Shown here: positions 4,280-41,097 of the stretch, one piece after another | Position numbering within the stretch: position 1 is the stretch's first letter | How the letters are laid out: each line of letters begins with the position of its first letter | Source of the DNA: an uncultured Blautia sp. | GTDB lineage: Bacteria > Bacillota > Clostridia > Lachnospirales > Lachnospiraceae | DNA length: 64,000 bases | NCBI RefSeq assembly: GCF_937880195.1 | Contig: NZ_CALFLA010000003.1 | Span: 24,323-88,322, forward strand | Direction of reading: 5' to 3' | Notes under the pieces: model-generated | Seen by the model: the letters and a program-made list of their open reading frames with translations, nothing else | What the model was told of the DNA's origin: nothing | Databases searched by the model: none | Program-made: the position numbers and the translations under genes

Positions 4280-5135
4280 ATTTTTCCCTGATTCTCGATT
4301 CTCCCTGACACAACCATTCTTCCACCAGAGAGCTGTTTCCCAGAATTTGGCAAAAGGCCTGGTATTCATCCAGAAGCCCTTTTCCATGTAAAACACTGTA
4401 GGCCCCGGCGTCGCTTCCCAAAGCGACCTGGGCCTTTTTCTCAAAAGCAAGCATAAGGTTCTCTTCTGCTTTTTTTATAATGGGAAGAAGAACTCTCTCT
4501 TCATATCTGGCTGTTCCCATAAGATTTCTTACTGTCACAAGAGTTGGAACCCAGATCGTATCGCTGTCTGCAAGCATAGAAATACACTCTTCATCCATAT
4601 AATTTCCATGTTCCAGACTGTCCGCCCCTGCTTCAATGGCTGCCATGGCTCCGTAAACGCCGTTTGTATGGCTCATAACTGCAAATCCCTCTTCATGGGC
4701 AATGTGGACCATTTCTCTGACTTCTTCTTTTTTCAAAGGAGTTCCTGTTATCTTTCCATGATTGCCAAAATCCAGAAGCCCTGTTGTCATAATTTTGATA
4801 AAATCTGCGCCCTGCCGTCCAGCCTCAAGTACCAGTTCATGATATTCCTTCATATTTGTAAAGCCTTTTCCCACAATACTTCCGTAATGCCCCTCTTTAT
4901 GAATGGCAAACACAGGAGTACGGTAGTCGATTCCATATTCCGGCGCCAGCTTTTTTGCCAAAAAAGAAACTCCATAGGGATCTCCTCCATCCCGGACAAA
5001 CTCTATTCCCGCTTCCTTATAGGCATTCAGACAGGCGCGCACTGCTTTTTCATCCGGTGTGTTTCTGTGGCGGCTTACAGCCTCACGGTAATTAATCCCG
5101 TCCATAAATATATGCGCATGACATTCACTCAGCAT
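4260..5135 (-). CDS. Amidohydrolase family metal-dependent hydrolase
   Basis: A 291-residue TIM-barrel hydrolase. Metal-ligand motifs appear in order: HAH at residues 6-8, a Lys in DFIKIMTTG that may be the carboxylated bridging residue, His in MSHTNG, His in DSLEHGN and Asp in ALGSDAG. The closest well-known types are imidazolonepropionase-like and prolidase-like amidohydrolases, but the substrate cannot be told. It is shorter than the usual 400 residues because the flanking beta-sandwich domain is missing. GGGGAGGTG precedes the ATG at 5135. It lies 61 bp after alaX on the same strand. Confidence 0.8.
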   Translation of the reverse strand: MLSECHAHIFMDGINYREAVSRHRNTPDEKAVRACLNAYKEAGIEFVRDGGDPYGVSFLAKKLAPEYGIDYRTPVFAIHKEGHYGSIVGKGFTNMKEYHELVLEAGRQGADFIKIMTTGLLDFGNHGKITGTPLKKEEVREMVHIAHEEGFAVMSHTNGVYGAMAAIEAGADSLEHGNYMDEECISMLADSDTIWVPTLVTVRNLMGTARYEERVLLPIIKKAEENLMLAFEKKAQVALGSDAGAYSVLHGKGLLDEYQAFCQILGNSSLVEEWLCQGESRIREKFRRPRS

Positions 5136-5196
5136 TTTTTCACCTCCCCATTTTTCTTATATAGGAAACTCCTCTGCCCTTTTCAGACACAGCCCA

Positions 5197-6348
5197 TTAC
5201 CTGTTAAAAAATCTGCGGATCTCATCCTCCTCTGCTTTTACAGATCCCTGGACGAAAAACGGCTTTCCGCCTCCTCTTCCATTTAGGGCTTGGTTCATTT
5301 CTTTTGTAAACTGGCGAAGATCTCCGTTCTTTTCTCCCATAGCATACTTATAGCTTCCGTCCTCATTTCTGGAAAATACAGCGCAGCATCCGGCGCAGGT
5401 TTCCATTACAGCGTCAGCCATTTTTCTCACACTGTCTCCCTCAAGCCCTTCATGAAAAATCAGTACGCTTCCTGCGCCTTCAAACCGTTTGGCTTCTGTG
5501 TCGCAAAGTTCCTGGGTCAAATGGAGGATCTGGCCTTTCAGTCGGTAGTTCTCCTCGTGAAGACGTTCTACCGCCCGGGCTGTCTCTTCTGTTTTTGCAG
5601 ACAGCTTCACGGAAATCTGATGATTCTGTCCGTTTACCATATTCAGATAATCAAGAACACGTCTGCCGCTGATCATGGTGACGCGGACGCCTTCCCGGAA
5701 CTTTTCTACTGTAAGAAGTTTCACCATTCCAATCTCTCCTGCCCTCATTACATGAGTTCCGCAGCAGGCGCACAGATCCGCTCCCGGAAACTGTACGAGA
5801 CGGACTTTTCCTGTCAATTCTTTTTTGCTTCTGTAGGAAAGACGCTCCAGTTCTTCCTTTTTCGGATAAAAAATTTCTACTTCTCCGTTTTCCCAAATCT
5901 TACGGTTTGTTTCCTCCTCAATCTTGGCAAGCTGTTTTTCTGTCAGAACACCGCTGAAATCAATGGTGATCACATCGCTGCTCATATGAAAGCCTACATT
6001 GTCATATCCATATTTTTCATGGACAAGACCGCTGACAATATGCTCGCCGGAATGCTGCTGCATCAGGTCAAAACGGCGTTCCCAATTGATCTTCCCCTGA
6101 ACTTCATCCCCTGGATCAAAAGACGTTTCCATATAGTGGATCAGCTCTCCGTCCTTTTCCTGAACGTCTTTTACCTCTGCGCCTCCCAGCGTTCCCAGAT
6201 CGCAGGGCTGACCGCCTCCTTCTGGATAAAAAGCGCTCTGATCCAAAATGATCTCATAAAACTTCTCTCCTTTTCGGCACTCCTTTACCTTTGCTTTAAA
6301 TTCTTTTATATAAACGTCTTCATAATATAATCTCCGCGTTTCCACCAT
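5197..6348 (-). CDS. Alanyl-tRNA editing protein, AlaX-L type
   Basis: A 383-residue stand-alone tRNA editing enzyme that would hydrolyse mischarged Ser- or Gly-tRNA(Ala). Residues 1-90 form the AlaRS-like second domain (QSAFYPEGGGQPCDLG). The zinc site is complete: HSGEHIVSG (HxxxH, near residue 98) and CACCGTH near residue 196. A central coiled-coil segment follows, then a DHHA1 domain ending in the Gly-rich NGRGGGKPFFVQGS, the feature of the long AlaX form. The start ATG at 6348 has AGAGGG upstream. The amidohydrolase gene follows. Confidence 0.9.
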   Translation of the reverse strand: MVETRRLYYEDVYIKEFKAKVKECRKGEKFYEIILDQSAFYPEGGGQPCDLGTLGGAEVKDVQEKDGELIHYMETSFDPGDEVQGKINWERRFDLMQQHSGEHIVSGLVHEKYGYDNVGFHMSSDVITIDFSGVLTEKQLAKIEEETNRKIWENGEVEIFYPKKEELERLSYRSKKELTGKVRLVQFPGADLCACCGTHVMRAGEIGMVKLLTVEKFREGVRVTMISGRRVLDYLNMVNGQNHQISVKLSAKTEETARAVERLHEENYRLKGQILHLTQELCDTEAKRFEGAGSVLIFHEGLEGDSVRKMADAVMETCAGCCAVFSRNEDGSYKYAMGEKNGDLRQFTKEMNQALNGRGGGKPFFVQGSVKAEEDEIRRFFNR

Positions 6349-6410
6349 AGAATTATCCCTCTCTCTTATTCTTTTGCCTGCCCGCAGCAGGCCGTTCGCT
6401 TACTGATATA

Positions 6411-6418
6411 TGATTATA
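6411..6418 (-). promoter_or_regulatory. Extended -10 promoter of the alaX transcript
   Basis: On the minus strand TGGTATAAT (6421-6413) gives an extended -10; the -35 region (TTCACA, 15 bp away) is poor. Confidence 0.35.
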
Positions 6419-6465
6419 CCACAGGCACAAAAATGTGAACAGCCCCTCCCATTCATCTATAAACG

Positions 6466-6503
6466 CAGAAAGAGCGCTGCAGACTTTATTTTCTGCAACG
6501 CTC
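6466..6503 (-). terminator. Terminator of the sucrose operon
   Basis: A 12-bp stem (6472-6483 with 6492-6503, one G-T pair), followed on the minus strand by TTTCTG, just downstream of the GH32 stop. Confidence 0.55.
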
Positions 6504-37636: not shown

Positions 37637-37678
37637 AGTCAACCATTATTTCTACAAATGTAGAAATAATGGTTGACT
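37637..37678 (+). promoter_or_regulatory. BlaI-type operator 1 inside a 42-bp perfect palindrome
   Basis: Two 20-base arms (37637-37656 and 37659-37678) pair perfectly around AA. The core TTCTACAAATGTAGAA matches the TACA-N2-TGTA operators of BlaI/MecI repressors. The right arm contains the -35 TTGACT. Confidence 0.7.
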
Positions 37679-37701
37679 TTTATCTTCTACAGATGTAGAA
37701 T
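37673..37701 (+). promoter_or_regulatory. Promoter of the secreted-protein gene
   Basis: TTGACT (37673-37678), 17 bp, TAGAAT (37696-37701). The -35 lies in palindrome 1 and the -10 in operator 2, so bound repressor should block it. Confidence 0.7.
37685..37700 (+). promoter_or_regulatory. BlaI-type operator 2
   Basis: TTCTACAGATGTAGAA, overlapping the -10. Confidence 0.7.
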
Positions 37702-37710
37702 AAAGTTAAC

Positions 37711-37726
37711 TTCTACGGATGTAGAA
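37711..37726 (+). promoter_or_regulatory. BlaI-type operator 3
   Basis: TTCTACGGATGTAGAA, 26 bp after operator 2 centre to centre, at the transcription start. Confidence 0.65.
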
Positions 37727-37750
37727 AATAAAATTTAGGGAGAATCCACT

Positions 37751-38668
37751 ATGAAGAAAAGAACAACAAAGTTTATGACACTTATGACTGCAGCAACACT
37801 TGGGATTTTTTCAGCAGGAACTGTTATGGCAGCTGGAAATAATGATTTTTATACGCAGCCGCCAGCTGGTTCTGCCTGGGAGAATGCAAATACGGAAGGT
37901 ACTTATGCCAGCTATACCAATGGAAGCGATTATGTAAATATTTACAAATATTCGCTGGAAGATGTCAAAACAGGAATCGCCAAATGCAACGACACTTATG
38001 AGGCCTGCTACCAGACGATTTATTCAGAAGGAGACAGCCTGTATATGGCAGTAGGATATGCAAAAGACGCAGATGATATAGGTGATGTCAGGAAATTTAT
38101 AGAATATATCTCCTATCCCGGAAACCCGTCTTTTACCAGACAGACAGAGGAAAATGCAGCAGGAAATTCTGATGCTTCCGTTCAGCAGTCAGAGGAAGGT
38201 TCAAATTCTTCCGATACAGAAGAAAATAATTCTGATAATTCAGAAGGTACAGAAGAAAATAATTCTGCTGATTCAGAAGATAACAGTGATGATTTGGATG
38301 TTATTTCTACTGCGCCTATGGTATTAGCTGACAGTAACGGAAATACAATTACAGTCAAATATATTCTTTACGAAGACAACTCTTATGAATATCGTGGTGA
38401 TGATGGAATGACATATACCGATAACGGGGATGACACCTATACAGACGAAAACGGAAATACCTATTCAGCTCTGAATGATGATACACATCATATGGGATAT
38501 CCGCTGGAACAGCACCATCTTCAGGATGTGGAGGGCAATACTATAACGGTTACCCAGACTACAAACGGCGATTATTATTTCGCCGATGAAAACGGCACCG
38601 GTTTTACCAACAATGGAGACGGGACATGGTACGATGAAAACGGCAGCAGTTATACGGAGATAGACTGA
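37751..38668 (+). CDS. Secreted protein with Asp/Gly-rich C-terminal domain, target of BlaI-like repressor
   Basis: 305 residues. A signal peptide (about residues 1-27, ending GTVMAAG) is followed by a globular N-terminal domain with two Cys (KCNDTYEACYQT). A low-complexity Ser/Glu/Asn linker covers about residues 130-185. The C-terminal 100 residues carry repeated short motifs of the kind DNGDDTYTDENGNTY and NNGDGTWYDENGSSY. The same domain ends the M56 protease encoded downstream. No anchor or lipobox is seen, so it is probably released or wall-associated. Function unknown. Three BlaI-type operators cover its promoter. Confidence 0.8.
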   Translation: MKKRTTKFMTLMTAATLGIFSAGTVMAAGNNDFYTQPPAGSAWENANTEGTYASYTNGSDYVNIYKYSLEDVKTGIAKCNDTYEACYQTIYSEGDSLYMAVGYAKDADDIGDVRKFIEYISYPGNPSFTRQTEENAAGNSDASVQQSEEGSNSSDTEENNSDNSEGTEENNSADSEDNSDDLDVISTAPMVLADSNGNTITVKYILYEDNSYEYRGDDGMTYTDNGDDTYTDENGNTYSALNDDTHHMGYPLEQHHLQDVEGNTITVTQTTNGDYYFADENGTGFTNNGDGTWYDENGSSYTEID

Positions 38669-38685
38669 CAGCGGTCAGTAGCTGA

Positions 38686-38727
38686 AACAAAGGGCTTCTG
38701 TAAAATATGCAGAAGTCCTTGTTATTT
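38686..38727 (+). terminator. Terminator of the secreted-protein gene
   Basis: AACAA.GG.CTTCTG pairs with CAGAAG.CC.TTGTT; it ends in TTGTTATTT. Confidence 0.6.
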
Positions 38728-38746
38728 CCGTAAATCATGGTATAAT
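38719..38746 (+). promoter_or_regulatory. Promoter reading toward blaI
   Basis: TTGTTA (38719-38724), 16 bp, TATAAT (38741-38746). It would yield a leader of about 210 nt containing two hairpins. Confidence 0.45.
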
Positions 38747-38816
38747 ATGAAAACTCCAGAATCCAGATGCACTTCGTACAGCTGACACTGCCATTGGCAG
38801 TTTGAAGATTCTGTCG

Positions 38817-38881
38817 TTACCATATCAGAAAAAACAAATGTCTGCTTCGCAGCCGCTTGTTTTTTTCTACTGATATGGTAA
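38817..38881 (+). other. 65-nt long hairpin in the blaI leader
   Basis: TTACCATATCAG (38817-38828) pairs with CTGATATGGTAA (38870-38881), extended by an A-run/T-run stem and a CTGC-TTC-GCAG tip. A second small hairpin (ACTGCCA/TGGCAGT) lies just upstream. It could be a structured leader, a small RNA or a degenerate miniature element. Confidence 0.55.
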
Positions 38882-38907
38882 AATAAAATTATCAGAAAAT
38901 TATTTCT

Positions 38908-38934
38908 AGTACAACGAATACTAGATTTATAGAG
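38908..38934 (+). promoter_or_regulatory. Palindromic site before blaI
   Basis: TCTAGTA and TACTAGA are mirrored around six bases about 35 bp upstream of the blaI start. It could be an autoregulatory site different from the TACA-type operators, or a remnant. Confidence 0.3.
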
Positions 38935-38961
38935 AATATGTAACAGGAGGGCTGAAAAAAG

Positions 38962-39351
38962 TTGAAAAAAACATATCAGAGACTACCCGAGTCAGAACTG
39001 GATATTATGCTTGTTCTTTGGAATGGCGCTCCTCCCATGACCAGACCGGAGATTGAAAAAGTAATCAATACGAAGAAAAAACTTGCATCAACAACGATCC
39101 TGTCATTACTGACCAGACTGGAGAGCAAAAATTTTGTAAAAGTGACGAAACAGGGAAAAATGAATCTGTATACACCTCTGGTCTCTCAGTCGGATTATCA
39201 GACCCATGAAAGTCAGAGTGTTCTTGAAAAGCTTTATGGTAATTCACTGAAAAAATTTGTAACAACACTATATCATGGAAAAAAGATCAGTTCGGAAGAA
39301 ATCCAGGATCTTAGTAATTTTCTCAAGGAGCTGGAGGACAGGGAGGAATAG
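38962..39351 (+). CDS. BlaI/MecI-family repressor
   Basis: 129 residues. The winged helix region (ELDIMLVLWNGAPPMTRPEI, then ASTTILSLLTRLESKNFV) is standard for BlaI/MecI. The C-terminal dimerisation part carries the helix where family members are cut by the partner protease. The start is TTG 38962, eleven bases after AGGAGG. It is followed after 6 bp by an M56 protease gene, the usual partner. Its targets are predicted to be the three operators at 37650-37726. Confidence 0.9.
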   Translation: MKKTYQRLPESELDIMLVLWNGAPPMTRPEIEKVINTKKKLASTTILSLLTRLESKNFVKVTKQGKMNLYTPLVSQSDYQTHESQSVLEKLYGNSLKKFVTTLYHGKKISSEEIQDLSNFLKELEDREE

Positions 39352-39357
39352 CGAATT

Positions 39358-41097
39358 ATGGAAGTTTTTGTTCTGCATATTCTGAAACTGAATATTATTG
39401 CAGCAGTTGTAATCTTGCTGGTCAAAGTGTTTGCGGCTTTGTCGAAAGGTAAAGTCTCTGCCAGATGGAAATATTTTATCTGGCTGTTTGTAACGGTCAG
39501 TCTTATGATTCCAGTGCAGCTGCCATCAACTCTGTCGCTGATAAATTTTAAAGTGCAGAGAAGCAGTCAGCTGGAGCCGAAGACAGAGCATCATGCTGTC
39601 AGACCCAAGGAAAGTCAGCAGCTGACAGAAGCTGTGCCGTCTGTGAGCAATAACATGGAAAGTCAGACCGAGGTCTCAGCACCAAAAGGAGATATCACGT
39701 ATAAGGCAGGTAAAGGGACAAAAATTGCAGCTGTAATTGTTACAGTAATCTGGCTGAGCGTGGCGGCGCTTAAACTGGCAGGCGAACTGCTGTCATATTA
39801 TCTTTCCATGAGGAATCTGAAACGGATGAGTATTCAGGTCAGTGATCCGGTGAGTATTCAGATGTACAGAGAGGCGTGTCGGAGGAAGCATGTACGAAAA
39901 ATGCCGGAACTAAGGCGAAATGCAGGTCTTACCACACCGCTTCTTGCAGGACTTTTTCATACAAAGTTGTATCTTCCAGCAACCGGATATTCAGCAGAGG
40001 AGAGGAAACTTGTTTTTTATCATGAACTTACCCATTATTGTCACAGGGATCTCTGGTATAAGATGCTTCTTCGAGTCTGTGCATCAATATACTGGTTCAA
40101 TCCATTCCTTCTTATTATGCTGAAAGAAGCGGATAAGGATATTGAAAATCTGTGTGACACAGCAGTTGTGAACCGGGTAAACAAAAAAGACCACAGGCTT
40201 TACAGACAACTGCTTCTTCGGACAGTAGCCATGGAAAATCAGATTCCCTATGTGACGGCAAGTCTCAATGACAGTGGAATGGTGTTTAAGGACAGAATCC
40301 TGTATATGGTGAATCTGCGGAAGCTTCGCAGAGGAATCCTGCCGGGAATTCTTGTAACGGCGCTCCTTGCAGGCGGTAACCTGGTATTTAATGTTTCTGC
40401 CGGAACAGACACCGTTTCGGTGAAAACTGAGAAATCTGATCTGGAAAAGAATACAAATCCAGAAGAAAAAAATGCACCAGATTATGCACCGTTTTCTCAA
40501 CTGGTAAACATGCAGCAAGTGGCAGAACCCCAGAGTGAAGAGGGAGTAGCAGAAAATGCAGAGACAGAAATTTCTGTAAATTCAGAGGAAAACTCAGCCA
40601 CAGAAACAACTCCTGAATCCCTTATAGAAAACAGCGGACAGGTAAACGAAACCACAGACTATGAAAATGATTCTGACAGTGATGAATCTGTATCACATTC
40701 TGAGGATCTTCCAGAAGGCGTTCCATACACCAGTGGATTCAGTAATGCTTCCGGTGTAGCATCAATTGTAGCGCCAGGTGAAGAGGATGACGAATCCAGA
40801 GTCCTTTACGATAACGGAGACGGAACTTATTCCGACGATTCCGGAACCAAATACAGTTATCAGGGAGATGGAAACTGGGCAGATGCCAATGGCAATTCCT
40901 ACCATACCTGGCAGGACGAAGATTACTATTTCGGAACCCAGCTGGGGCAGCATGAACTCCAGGGCAGCAACGGCACCGTCGATATAAAAGAGACCACAAA
41001 CGGGGATTATTTTTATCGTGACGAAAATGGCGTAGGCTATACCGATAATGGAGATGGAACCTGGACAGATGAAAATGGAAATACCTATACGGAATAA
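39358..41097 (+). CDS. BlaR1-like M56 membrane metalloprotease with shared Asp/Gly-rich tail
   Basis: 579 residues. Two N-terminal helices (about residues 8-28 and 40-55), one at about 125-150, the M56 zinc protease with HELTH at 222-226, and a last helix at about 323-345 whose far side is outside the cell. The extracellular tail has an acidic Ser/Glu-rich linker and, from about residue 480, the same domain as the secreted protein of this locus (NGDGTYSDDSGTKY to NGDGTWTDENGNTYTE). The penicillin-binding domain of BlaR1 is absent, so the signal is not a beta-lactam by that route. It should cleave the adjacent repressor when activated. Confidence 0.88.
   Translation: MEVFVLHILKLNIIAAVVILLVKVFAALSKGKVSARWKYFIWLFVTVSLMIPVQLPSTLSLINFKVQRSSQLEPKTEHHAVRPKESQQLTEAVPSVSNNMESQTEVSAPKGDITYKAGKGTKIAAVIVTVIWLSVAALKLAGELLSYYLSMRNLKRMSIQVSDPVSIQMYREACRRKHVRKMPELRRNAGLTTPLLAGLFHTKLYLPATGYSAEERKLVFYHELTHYCHRDLWYKMLLRVCASIYWFNPFLLIMLKEADKDIENLCDTAVVNRVNKKDHRLYRQLLLRTVAMENQIPYVTASLNDSGMVFKDRILYMVNLRKLRRGILPGILVTALLAGGNLVFNVSAGTDTVSVKTEKSDLEKNTNPEEKNAPDYAPFSQLVNMQQVAEPQSEEGVAENAETEISVNSEENSATETTPESLIENSGQVNETTDYENDSDSDESVSHSEDLPEGVPYTSGFSNASGVASIVAPGEEDDESRVLYDNGDGTYSDDSGTKYSYQGDGNWADANGNSYHTWQDEDYYFGTQLGQHELQGSNGTVDIKETTNGDYFYRDENGVGYTDNGDGTWTDENGNTYTE

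Follow-up and report, generated by a model that had tools for sequence, protein, structure and literature searches.

The sensor domain of BlaR1, an M56-type sensor, is described as structurally homologous to the class D β-lactamases (PMC5957439, PMC9834060, PMC7593790). A comparable relationship is reported for RsgI6 of C. thermocellum, whose GH10 module shares 57% identity with Xyn10D, the promoter of which sigma-I6 recognises (PMC4711584). The logic common to these pairs would be that sensor and effector recognise one ligand. By analogy, a triplet of + strand genes in a Blautia-like stretch of 64,000 nucleotides (contig NZ_CALFLA010000003.1; "the window" denotes this whole stretch) fits that logic, both the domain and the effector being new. 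The triplet encodes a secreted protein (SEC), a BlaI-family repressor, and an M56 membrane protease (M56) in which the extracellular tail is the same domain as the C-terminal tail of SEC. With a probability of about 0.5, this is read as a BlaI/M56 induction circuit in which the sensor tail copies the C-terminal domain of SEC, and sensor and target bind the same ligand. The source is termed Blautia-like as the named relatives of SEC are from Blautia, whose members live in the gut.

SEC (37751..38668, +, 305 aa) consists of a signal peptide, judged by eye, an N-terminal domain at residues ~30–125, an acidic linker, and the C-terminal tail, and matches no Pfam family at an expectation value (E) of 1 and no NCBIfam family. 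The repressor (38962..39351, +, 129 aa, TTG start) matches the winged-helix Penicillinase_R family PF03965 (E 5.7e-26; 91.6 bits vs. a cut-off of 22.6) and is 77–96% identical to the intact copies in the triplets of relatives. The protease-sensor (39358..41097, +, 579 aa) matches PF05569 (E 2.4e-45) and carries a zinc motif of HELTH at residues 222–226 with E263 and D267. H222, H226, E263, and D267 are invariant in an alignment of 20 sequences and have the spacing of H201, H205, E242, and D246 in BlaR1 (BlaR1 residues as given in PMC9834060).

The locus resembles the BlaI/BlaR1–class D systems of S. aureus and of three loci met in this work (L096, L104, L130) in having a BlaI repressor, the same M56 zinc spacing, and a sensor homologous to a secreted protein, which in those systems is an enzyme. 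It differs in that its tail belongs to no transpeptidase family and its putative target, SEC, has no Pfam family. No transpeptidase or penicillin-binding domain (PF00905) was found in the window M56 by Pfam scan, and the protein scores 117 bits against NCBIfam blaR1_generic, where the cut-off is 400. Similarly, SEC, the gene with operators beside BlaI/M56, belongs to no β-lactamase or PBP2a family, although distant targets were not searched. A preliminary description of the sequence had located these open reading frames (ORFs) correctly and was right in seeing a BlaI-type repressor with an M56 protease that lacks a penicillin-binding domain and is not a BlaR1 β-lactam sensor. Its statement that no target sharing the tail of its sensor was known is not supported, given the reported homology of BlaR1 to class D β-lactamases (PMC5957439, PMC9834060) and the pairs of this kind at L096, L104, and L130. 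Among the literature matches listed (titles and abstract openings, with subscription papers mostly outside), no such design appears for M56 sensors beyond BlaR1/MecR1, which is weak evidence of absence. The SigI/RsgI systems, exemplified by RsgI6/Xyn10D, are alike in that the sensor ectodomain is a near relative (57% identity) of a protein with a promoter recognised by the cognate sigma factor, the logic being that the ligand of the effector itself is sensed (PMC4711584). They differ in using an anti-sigma factor with sigma-I and known polysaccharide ligands, where the window has an M56 protease and a BlaI repressor.

The shared domain, termed type A, occupies 38363..38665 (+) in SEC and 40798..41094 (+) in M56. 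Both tails consist of two repeats of ~45–50 residues with turns rich in D, N, and G, which may bind calcium, as the preliminary description proposed. They are 47% identical over 99 residues (E 1.7e-23 with low-complexity masking on), and a BLASTP comparison including the acidic linker gives E 8e-27. In 7/7 genomes of relatives the tail has exactly two matches at E 0.001, SEC and M56. A generic low-complexity sequence was rejected on the basis of the masked E-value and these two matches per genome. Across the wider family, a tail match occurs in 5/299 sampled genomes: G002 and G003, both with a SEC–M56 pair, and three weak ones. As weak relatives of the repeat lie outside any triplet in G233 (beside an SH3 domain), G017, and G214, the module is not unique to this arrangement. 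AlphaFold2 predicts β-strands for both tails, with block confidence (predicted local distance difference test, pLDDT) of 61–89 for the second repeat of SEC and 59–81 for M56; overall model quality is low (mean pLDDT 46.5 and 41.5), and nothing beyond the β-strand tails is interpretable. A profile search of solved structures returned best E-values of only 0.26 and 0.55. One SEC relative of 398 aa, P0046, carries its whole C-terminal tail as a tandem duplicate, and PF20608 is listed for it.

Three BlaI-type operators lie across a putative sigma-A-type SEC promoter read from the sequence (TTGACT, 17-base spacer, TAGAAT; 37673..37701, +), and a similar layout is visible upstream of SEC in relatives. 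Operator 1, TACAAATGTA (37653..37662, +), is upstream of the -35 element and forms the core of a longer perfect palindrome, ACCATTATTTCTACAAATGTAGAAATAATGGT. Operator 2, TACAGATGTA (37688..37697, +), overlaps the spacer and the -10 element, and operator 3, TACGGATGTA (37714..37723, +), is downstream of the -10 element with one mismatch to TACANNTGTA. A scan of the window allowing up to three mismatches found 36 operator matches vs. 17 expected, and all those with zero or one mismatch are at the SEC promoter. Using the pattern TAC[AG]NN[CT]GTA across the genus, at least one operator was found in 16/16 SEC promoters scanned, equal to 15/15 distinct promoters as L059, with equal length and match, appears to be the L001 contig again. 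The blaI promoters have an operator in 11/14 cases with the window counted, those without being the window, L002, and L051. By coordinates, nine of the 13 occurrences of the long operator form TCTACNNATGTAGA in seven genomes fall at this locus. In vitro, C. thermocellum BlaI proteins reportedly recognise operators in pairs as well as the promoters of their own genes, through a different motif (PMC8457756).

Conservation of the triplet was examined across 64 genomes from the genus to which G003 belongs. At E 1e-20, M56 is matched in 22 of them. Sixteen matches in 15 genomes, with 46–91% identity, were taken as M56 orthologues, including three partial ones (G332 from residue 127, G360 from residue 30, and G338 to residue 405). 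BlaI and SEC adjoin M56 in 13/16 of these. The exceptions are G361:C41 and G360, which are disrupted and lack SEC, and G332, which is split by contig ends. In G361:C41 the N-terminus of BlaI has been replaced, while neither BlaI nor SEC is present in the 9.5 kb examined of G360. Outside these orthologues, distant BlaI relatives of 58–66% identity (L069–L074) show no triplet, with L069 and L072 reaching contig ends, and at L068 (BlaI 64%) an M56 is present with a tail that has no partner. The domain shared by SEC and M56 and the three operators over the SEC promoter, both noted in the preliminary description, and the linkage of the genes in relatives, which it set as a check, are borne out by these comparisons.

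It looks from the sequences as if the SEC tail has replaced the M56 tail in three cases. In the lineage of L050 and L052 (G325 and G361:C54), M56 tails cluster with those of SEC, the four rows joining at 93/93 in a tree where the tool flagged L051_M as a long branch. Within these two genomes the SEC and M56 tails are 78% and 75% identical, against 49% to the window M56 tail, and at L050 the last 43 aligned residues include 40 identities. The L050 tails differ by a synonymous divergence (dS) of 0.77 and a nonsynonymous divergence (dN) of 0.13 over 98 codons. Very recent copying is rejected by this dS, and the dN/dS is ordinary and gives the matching no extra support. The second case is formed by three of the 155 M56 proteins listed (P0219, P0220, P0228), which have a SEC-type tail and linker, the first repeat being 96% and the second 93–95% identical to that of the SEC tail; these may be assembly chimeras. 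In G338, SEC and M56 both end in an unrelated tail, type B, matching at 75% over 63 residues, which in M56 sits behind an SH3_3 domain. In the opposite direction, three of the 120 SEC proteins listed have a second repeat slightly nearer to the M56 tail.

A survey of other M56 sensors was prompted by two pairs met by chance, L084 and L087. It covered 100 regions, these being M56 places among the matches listed for 100 sampled Lachnospiraceae genomes, picked roughly by score order; duplicates, places already included, and some of the short ORFs were skipped. With the earlier loci and the window the total is 150 loci, holding 144 M56 ORFs with HExxH in 138 loci. A tail of at least 40 residues is present in 143 M56 ORFs, 17 from the window family and 126 others. 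E-values are derived from six-frame ORFs, the sample is weighted to strong PF05569 matches, and kinship between loci is ignored. In the window family, 13/17 tails have a partner. Among the other tails, 8/126 match a non-M56 ORF of the same locus at E 1e-5 vs. 0.39 expected from the rate of matches at other loci, and in the survey proper the figure is 6/104 vs. 0.3. By a hit-count rule 17/126 tails are of transpeptidase type, three of which have a class D or penicillin-binding protein (PBP) neighbour (L096, L104, L130); PF00905 is present in the M56 of L096, L104, L106, and L130. Non-transpeptidase tails have a partner in 5/109 cases vs. 0.07 expected (Fisher P 3.4e-8), one of them at L166, where a true partner was discounted because the neighbour holds a piece of M56 sequence. 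L062 (E 4e-4) and the M56–M56 pairs at L081, L162, and L187 were not counted.

The partners found are diverse. At L087 (563-4796, +, G014), M56 is fused to a solute-binding protein of which a stand-alone copy lies upstream, matching at 60% over 477 residues, and a BlaI gene lies downstream. The partner is an FG-GAP lipoprotein at L141, a PepSY protein at L163, and at L084 a 118-aa protein with four paired cysteines, for which the name Cys4 is coined here. A phylum-wide replicate used 36 loci taken from among the higher-ranked entries listed; G003, a frame-broken place, and a fragmentary place were omitted. In this set 2/32 tails have a partner, with ~0.26 expected (9/1120 other-locus matches). 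At L198 (5006-7829, +, G462), M56 carries a fused phosphodiester glycosidase (NAGPA) domain, and a NAGPA gene lying 10 bases downstream matches it at 62%; at L214 the partner shares an unnamed secreted domain at 65%. M56 tails shared with a neighbouring exported protein span at least eight types (A, B, class D/PBP, solute-binding protein, PepSY, FG-GAP, Cys4, and NAGPA), and the L214 tail is a ninth. This recurrence with different domains in unrelated M56 sensors hints at a general mode of building them.

Regulation of the partners was assessed with the pattern [TG]ACANNTGT[AC] within 250 bases upstream. A BlaI-type site is present upstream of 6/7 partners, L166 being left out (it has none) and the L104 partner being the one without. 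For comparison, the site occurs at 33/806 other ORFs and at 28/123 BlaI genes of those loci. The genes of the class D/PBP neighbours at L096 and L130 have such sites, and the site at L141 is overlain only by opposite-strand ORFs of 92 and 120 aa.

The linkage, operators, shared domain, zinc motif, apparent tail replacement, and recurrence elsewhere are seen in the sequences; we infer that BlaI binds the operators, that M56 inactivates BlaI, and that one ligand serves both tails. In the proposed circuit, BlaI would use the operators across the SEC promoter to repress SEC, and in most relatives it would repress blaI-M56 too. A ligand meeting the M56 tail outside the cell would activate the inward-facing zinc protease, leading to inactivation of BlaI and export of SEC. 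SEC would then bind the same ligand through its matching tail, carrying its N-terminal domain there. Judging from the operators, it is most likely that the SEC gene is switched on by the M56 sensor. The ligand is probably a cell-wall or other surface polymer, as suggested by the SH3 domains found in company with the tails and by the absence of any recognised enzyme domain.

Several observations weigh against this circuit. The SEC and M56 tails in the nine loci of the window lineage are only 41–50% identical, with a dS of 1.3–2.4 in the six loci tested, meaning there is no continuous homogenisation and close matching is not required. G339 keeps the triplet with a type B tail on SEC and a type A tail on M56, as if SEC had changed its tail first. 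Strict coevolution of the tails was rejected given this mismatch and the low identity in the window lineage. Gene conversion between adjacent repeats could also equalise tails without selection. The window's own blaI promoter has no operator, whereas 11/13 of those in relatives have one, and fold searches with both AlphaFold2 models gave no match at E 0.001. Beyond this locus, no matching neighbour was found for 118/126 tails in the survey and 30/32 phylum-wide, so the shared-tail design is a minority among M56 sensors. The pattern for partner sites was set after the upstream regions of the partners had been inspected, and both phylum-wide partners lack a site, lowering the count to 6/9 overall; the L198 partner, 10 bases behind M56, may share its operon.

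The tails could instead serve contact with each other, with SEC binding the M56 tail or competing for its partner to give sensor feedback or cell–cell signalling. The restriction of tail matches to SEC and M56 in all seven genomes of relatives is in keeping with this, as is the ability of a SEC tail to occupy the M56 position in the P0219 group and L050/L052, and feedback would be natural if SEC is, as is probable, induced by the same circuit. Contact is nevertheless rated unlikely, as G339 retains the triplet despite unlike tails and the domains of several other pairs (solute-binding protein, NAGPA, class D/PBP, PepSY) are by family name ligand binders or enzymes and are not known for homotypic contact. 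Because shared domains elsewhere are mostly of these kinds, a shared ligand is the better general reading. An equally doubtful explanation is that the tails have no functional link, and that a surface module was exchanged by chance, with nearness and repeats then causing occasional conversion. The conversion-like events in the P0219 group, L050/L052, and G338 would be expected under such exchange, as would the tandem tail copy in P0046 and the ordinary constraint that followed the L050 exchange. Chance exchange accounts poorly for the recurrence of the design in further M56 families of the phylum, where it involves unrelated domains and is more frequent than matches at other loci, and for the BlaI-type site at 6/9 partners.

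Lastly, SEC may be controlled by another BlaI/CopY-type repressor, with the neighbouring BlaI/M56 pair serving a different target. Operators of the TACANNTGTA type are common to the wider BlaI family, the window blaI promoter has a different palindrome in place of TACANNTGTA, and two more M56 genes are present in the related genome G003, one of them with a BlaR1-like transpeptidase domain. A separate repressor is nonetheless improbable, given that SEC and blaI are each preceded by an operator in 11/14 loci and that 9/13 copies of the long form in the seven genomes are at this locus. The shared-ligand circuit is preferred for the Blautia triplet.

A wider rule may be proposed, in which an M56 sensor is the outer domain of its target placed on an M56 protease, and a change of domain in the target can be followed by overwriting of the sensor through gene conversion. 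BlaR1/class D would be one of at least eight types. This rule is advanced only tentatively, its probability having been lowered slightly because L084 and L087 prompted the survey and the replicate partners lack the operator. Its interest lies in the many M56 sensors without a penicillin-binding domain, with 109/126 survey tails not of transpeptidase type by the hit-count rule. To our knowledge, no signal has been identified for any such sensor. If a ligand-binding domain is shared by design, the ligand of an M56 sensor would be predictable from the neighbouring secreted protein, and its signal would become testable from sequence via the ligand of the secreted twin. BlaR1 would also become a member of a larger class, and circuits could gain new inputs by an evolutionary route in which the target overwrites the sensor.

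Copper sensing was considered, since the repressor belongs to the same superfamily as CopY/TcrY and a copper ATPase gene lies upstream in the window. CopY/TcrY repressors have operators of the TACANNTGTA type and a C-terminal cysteine motif. Unlike these, the window BlaI has no cysteine in its 129 aa, scores 59.3 bits vs. a CopY_TcrY cut-off of 121.95, and has an M56 partner. The copper ATPase, CsoR-type, and ClC genes upstream of the triplet are kept in L001 and L002 and were not found in the flanks examined of L003–L008; a ClC gene is downstream of the triplet in L050. Copper sensing was rejected on these grounds, and the three genes probably do not belong to the circuit.

In the window the palindrome CTAGTA-N7-TACTAG (38906..38924) precedes blaI at the place taken by TACANNTGTA in most relatives, and may be another type of operator or an RNA hairpin. 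In L002 the corresponding sequence is CCAGTA-N7-TACTGG, the palindrome being preserved through changes in both arms. Among the disrupted loci, L054 of G361 (5929-6495, -) encodes a BlaI without its DNA-binding N-terminus, the C-terminal part being fused behind a sequence that we take to be a response-regulator-like receiver, in either a real fusion or an assembly join. At L057 of G360 (5032-6138, -), a gene presumed to be TnpB-like lies directly before M56, whose N-terminus is altered.

The last membrane helix of the window M56 ends in FNVSAG (residues ~344–349, near 40387-40404), a signal-peptidase-like VSA/G site, and similar endings are seen in relatives. In BlaR1, signal peptidase is described as cutting the linker that follows the final helix (PMC9834060). 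Given this resemblance and the cleavage of BlaR1 in the same linker, the M56 tail may be shed after the last helix.

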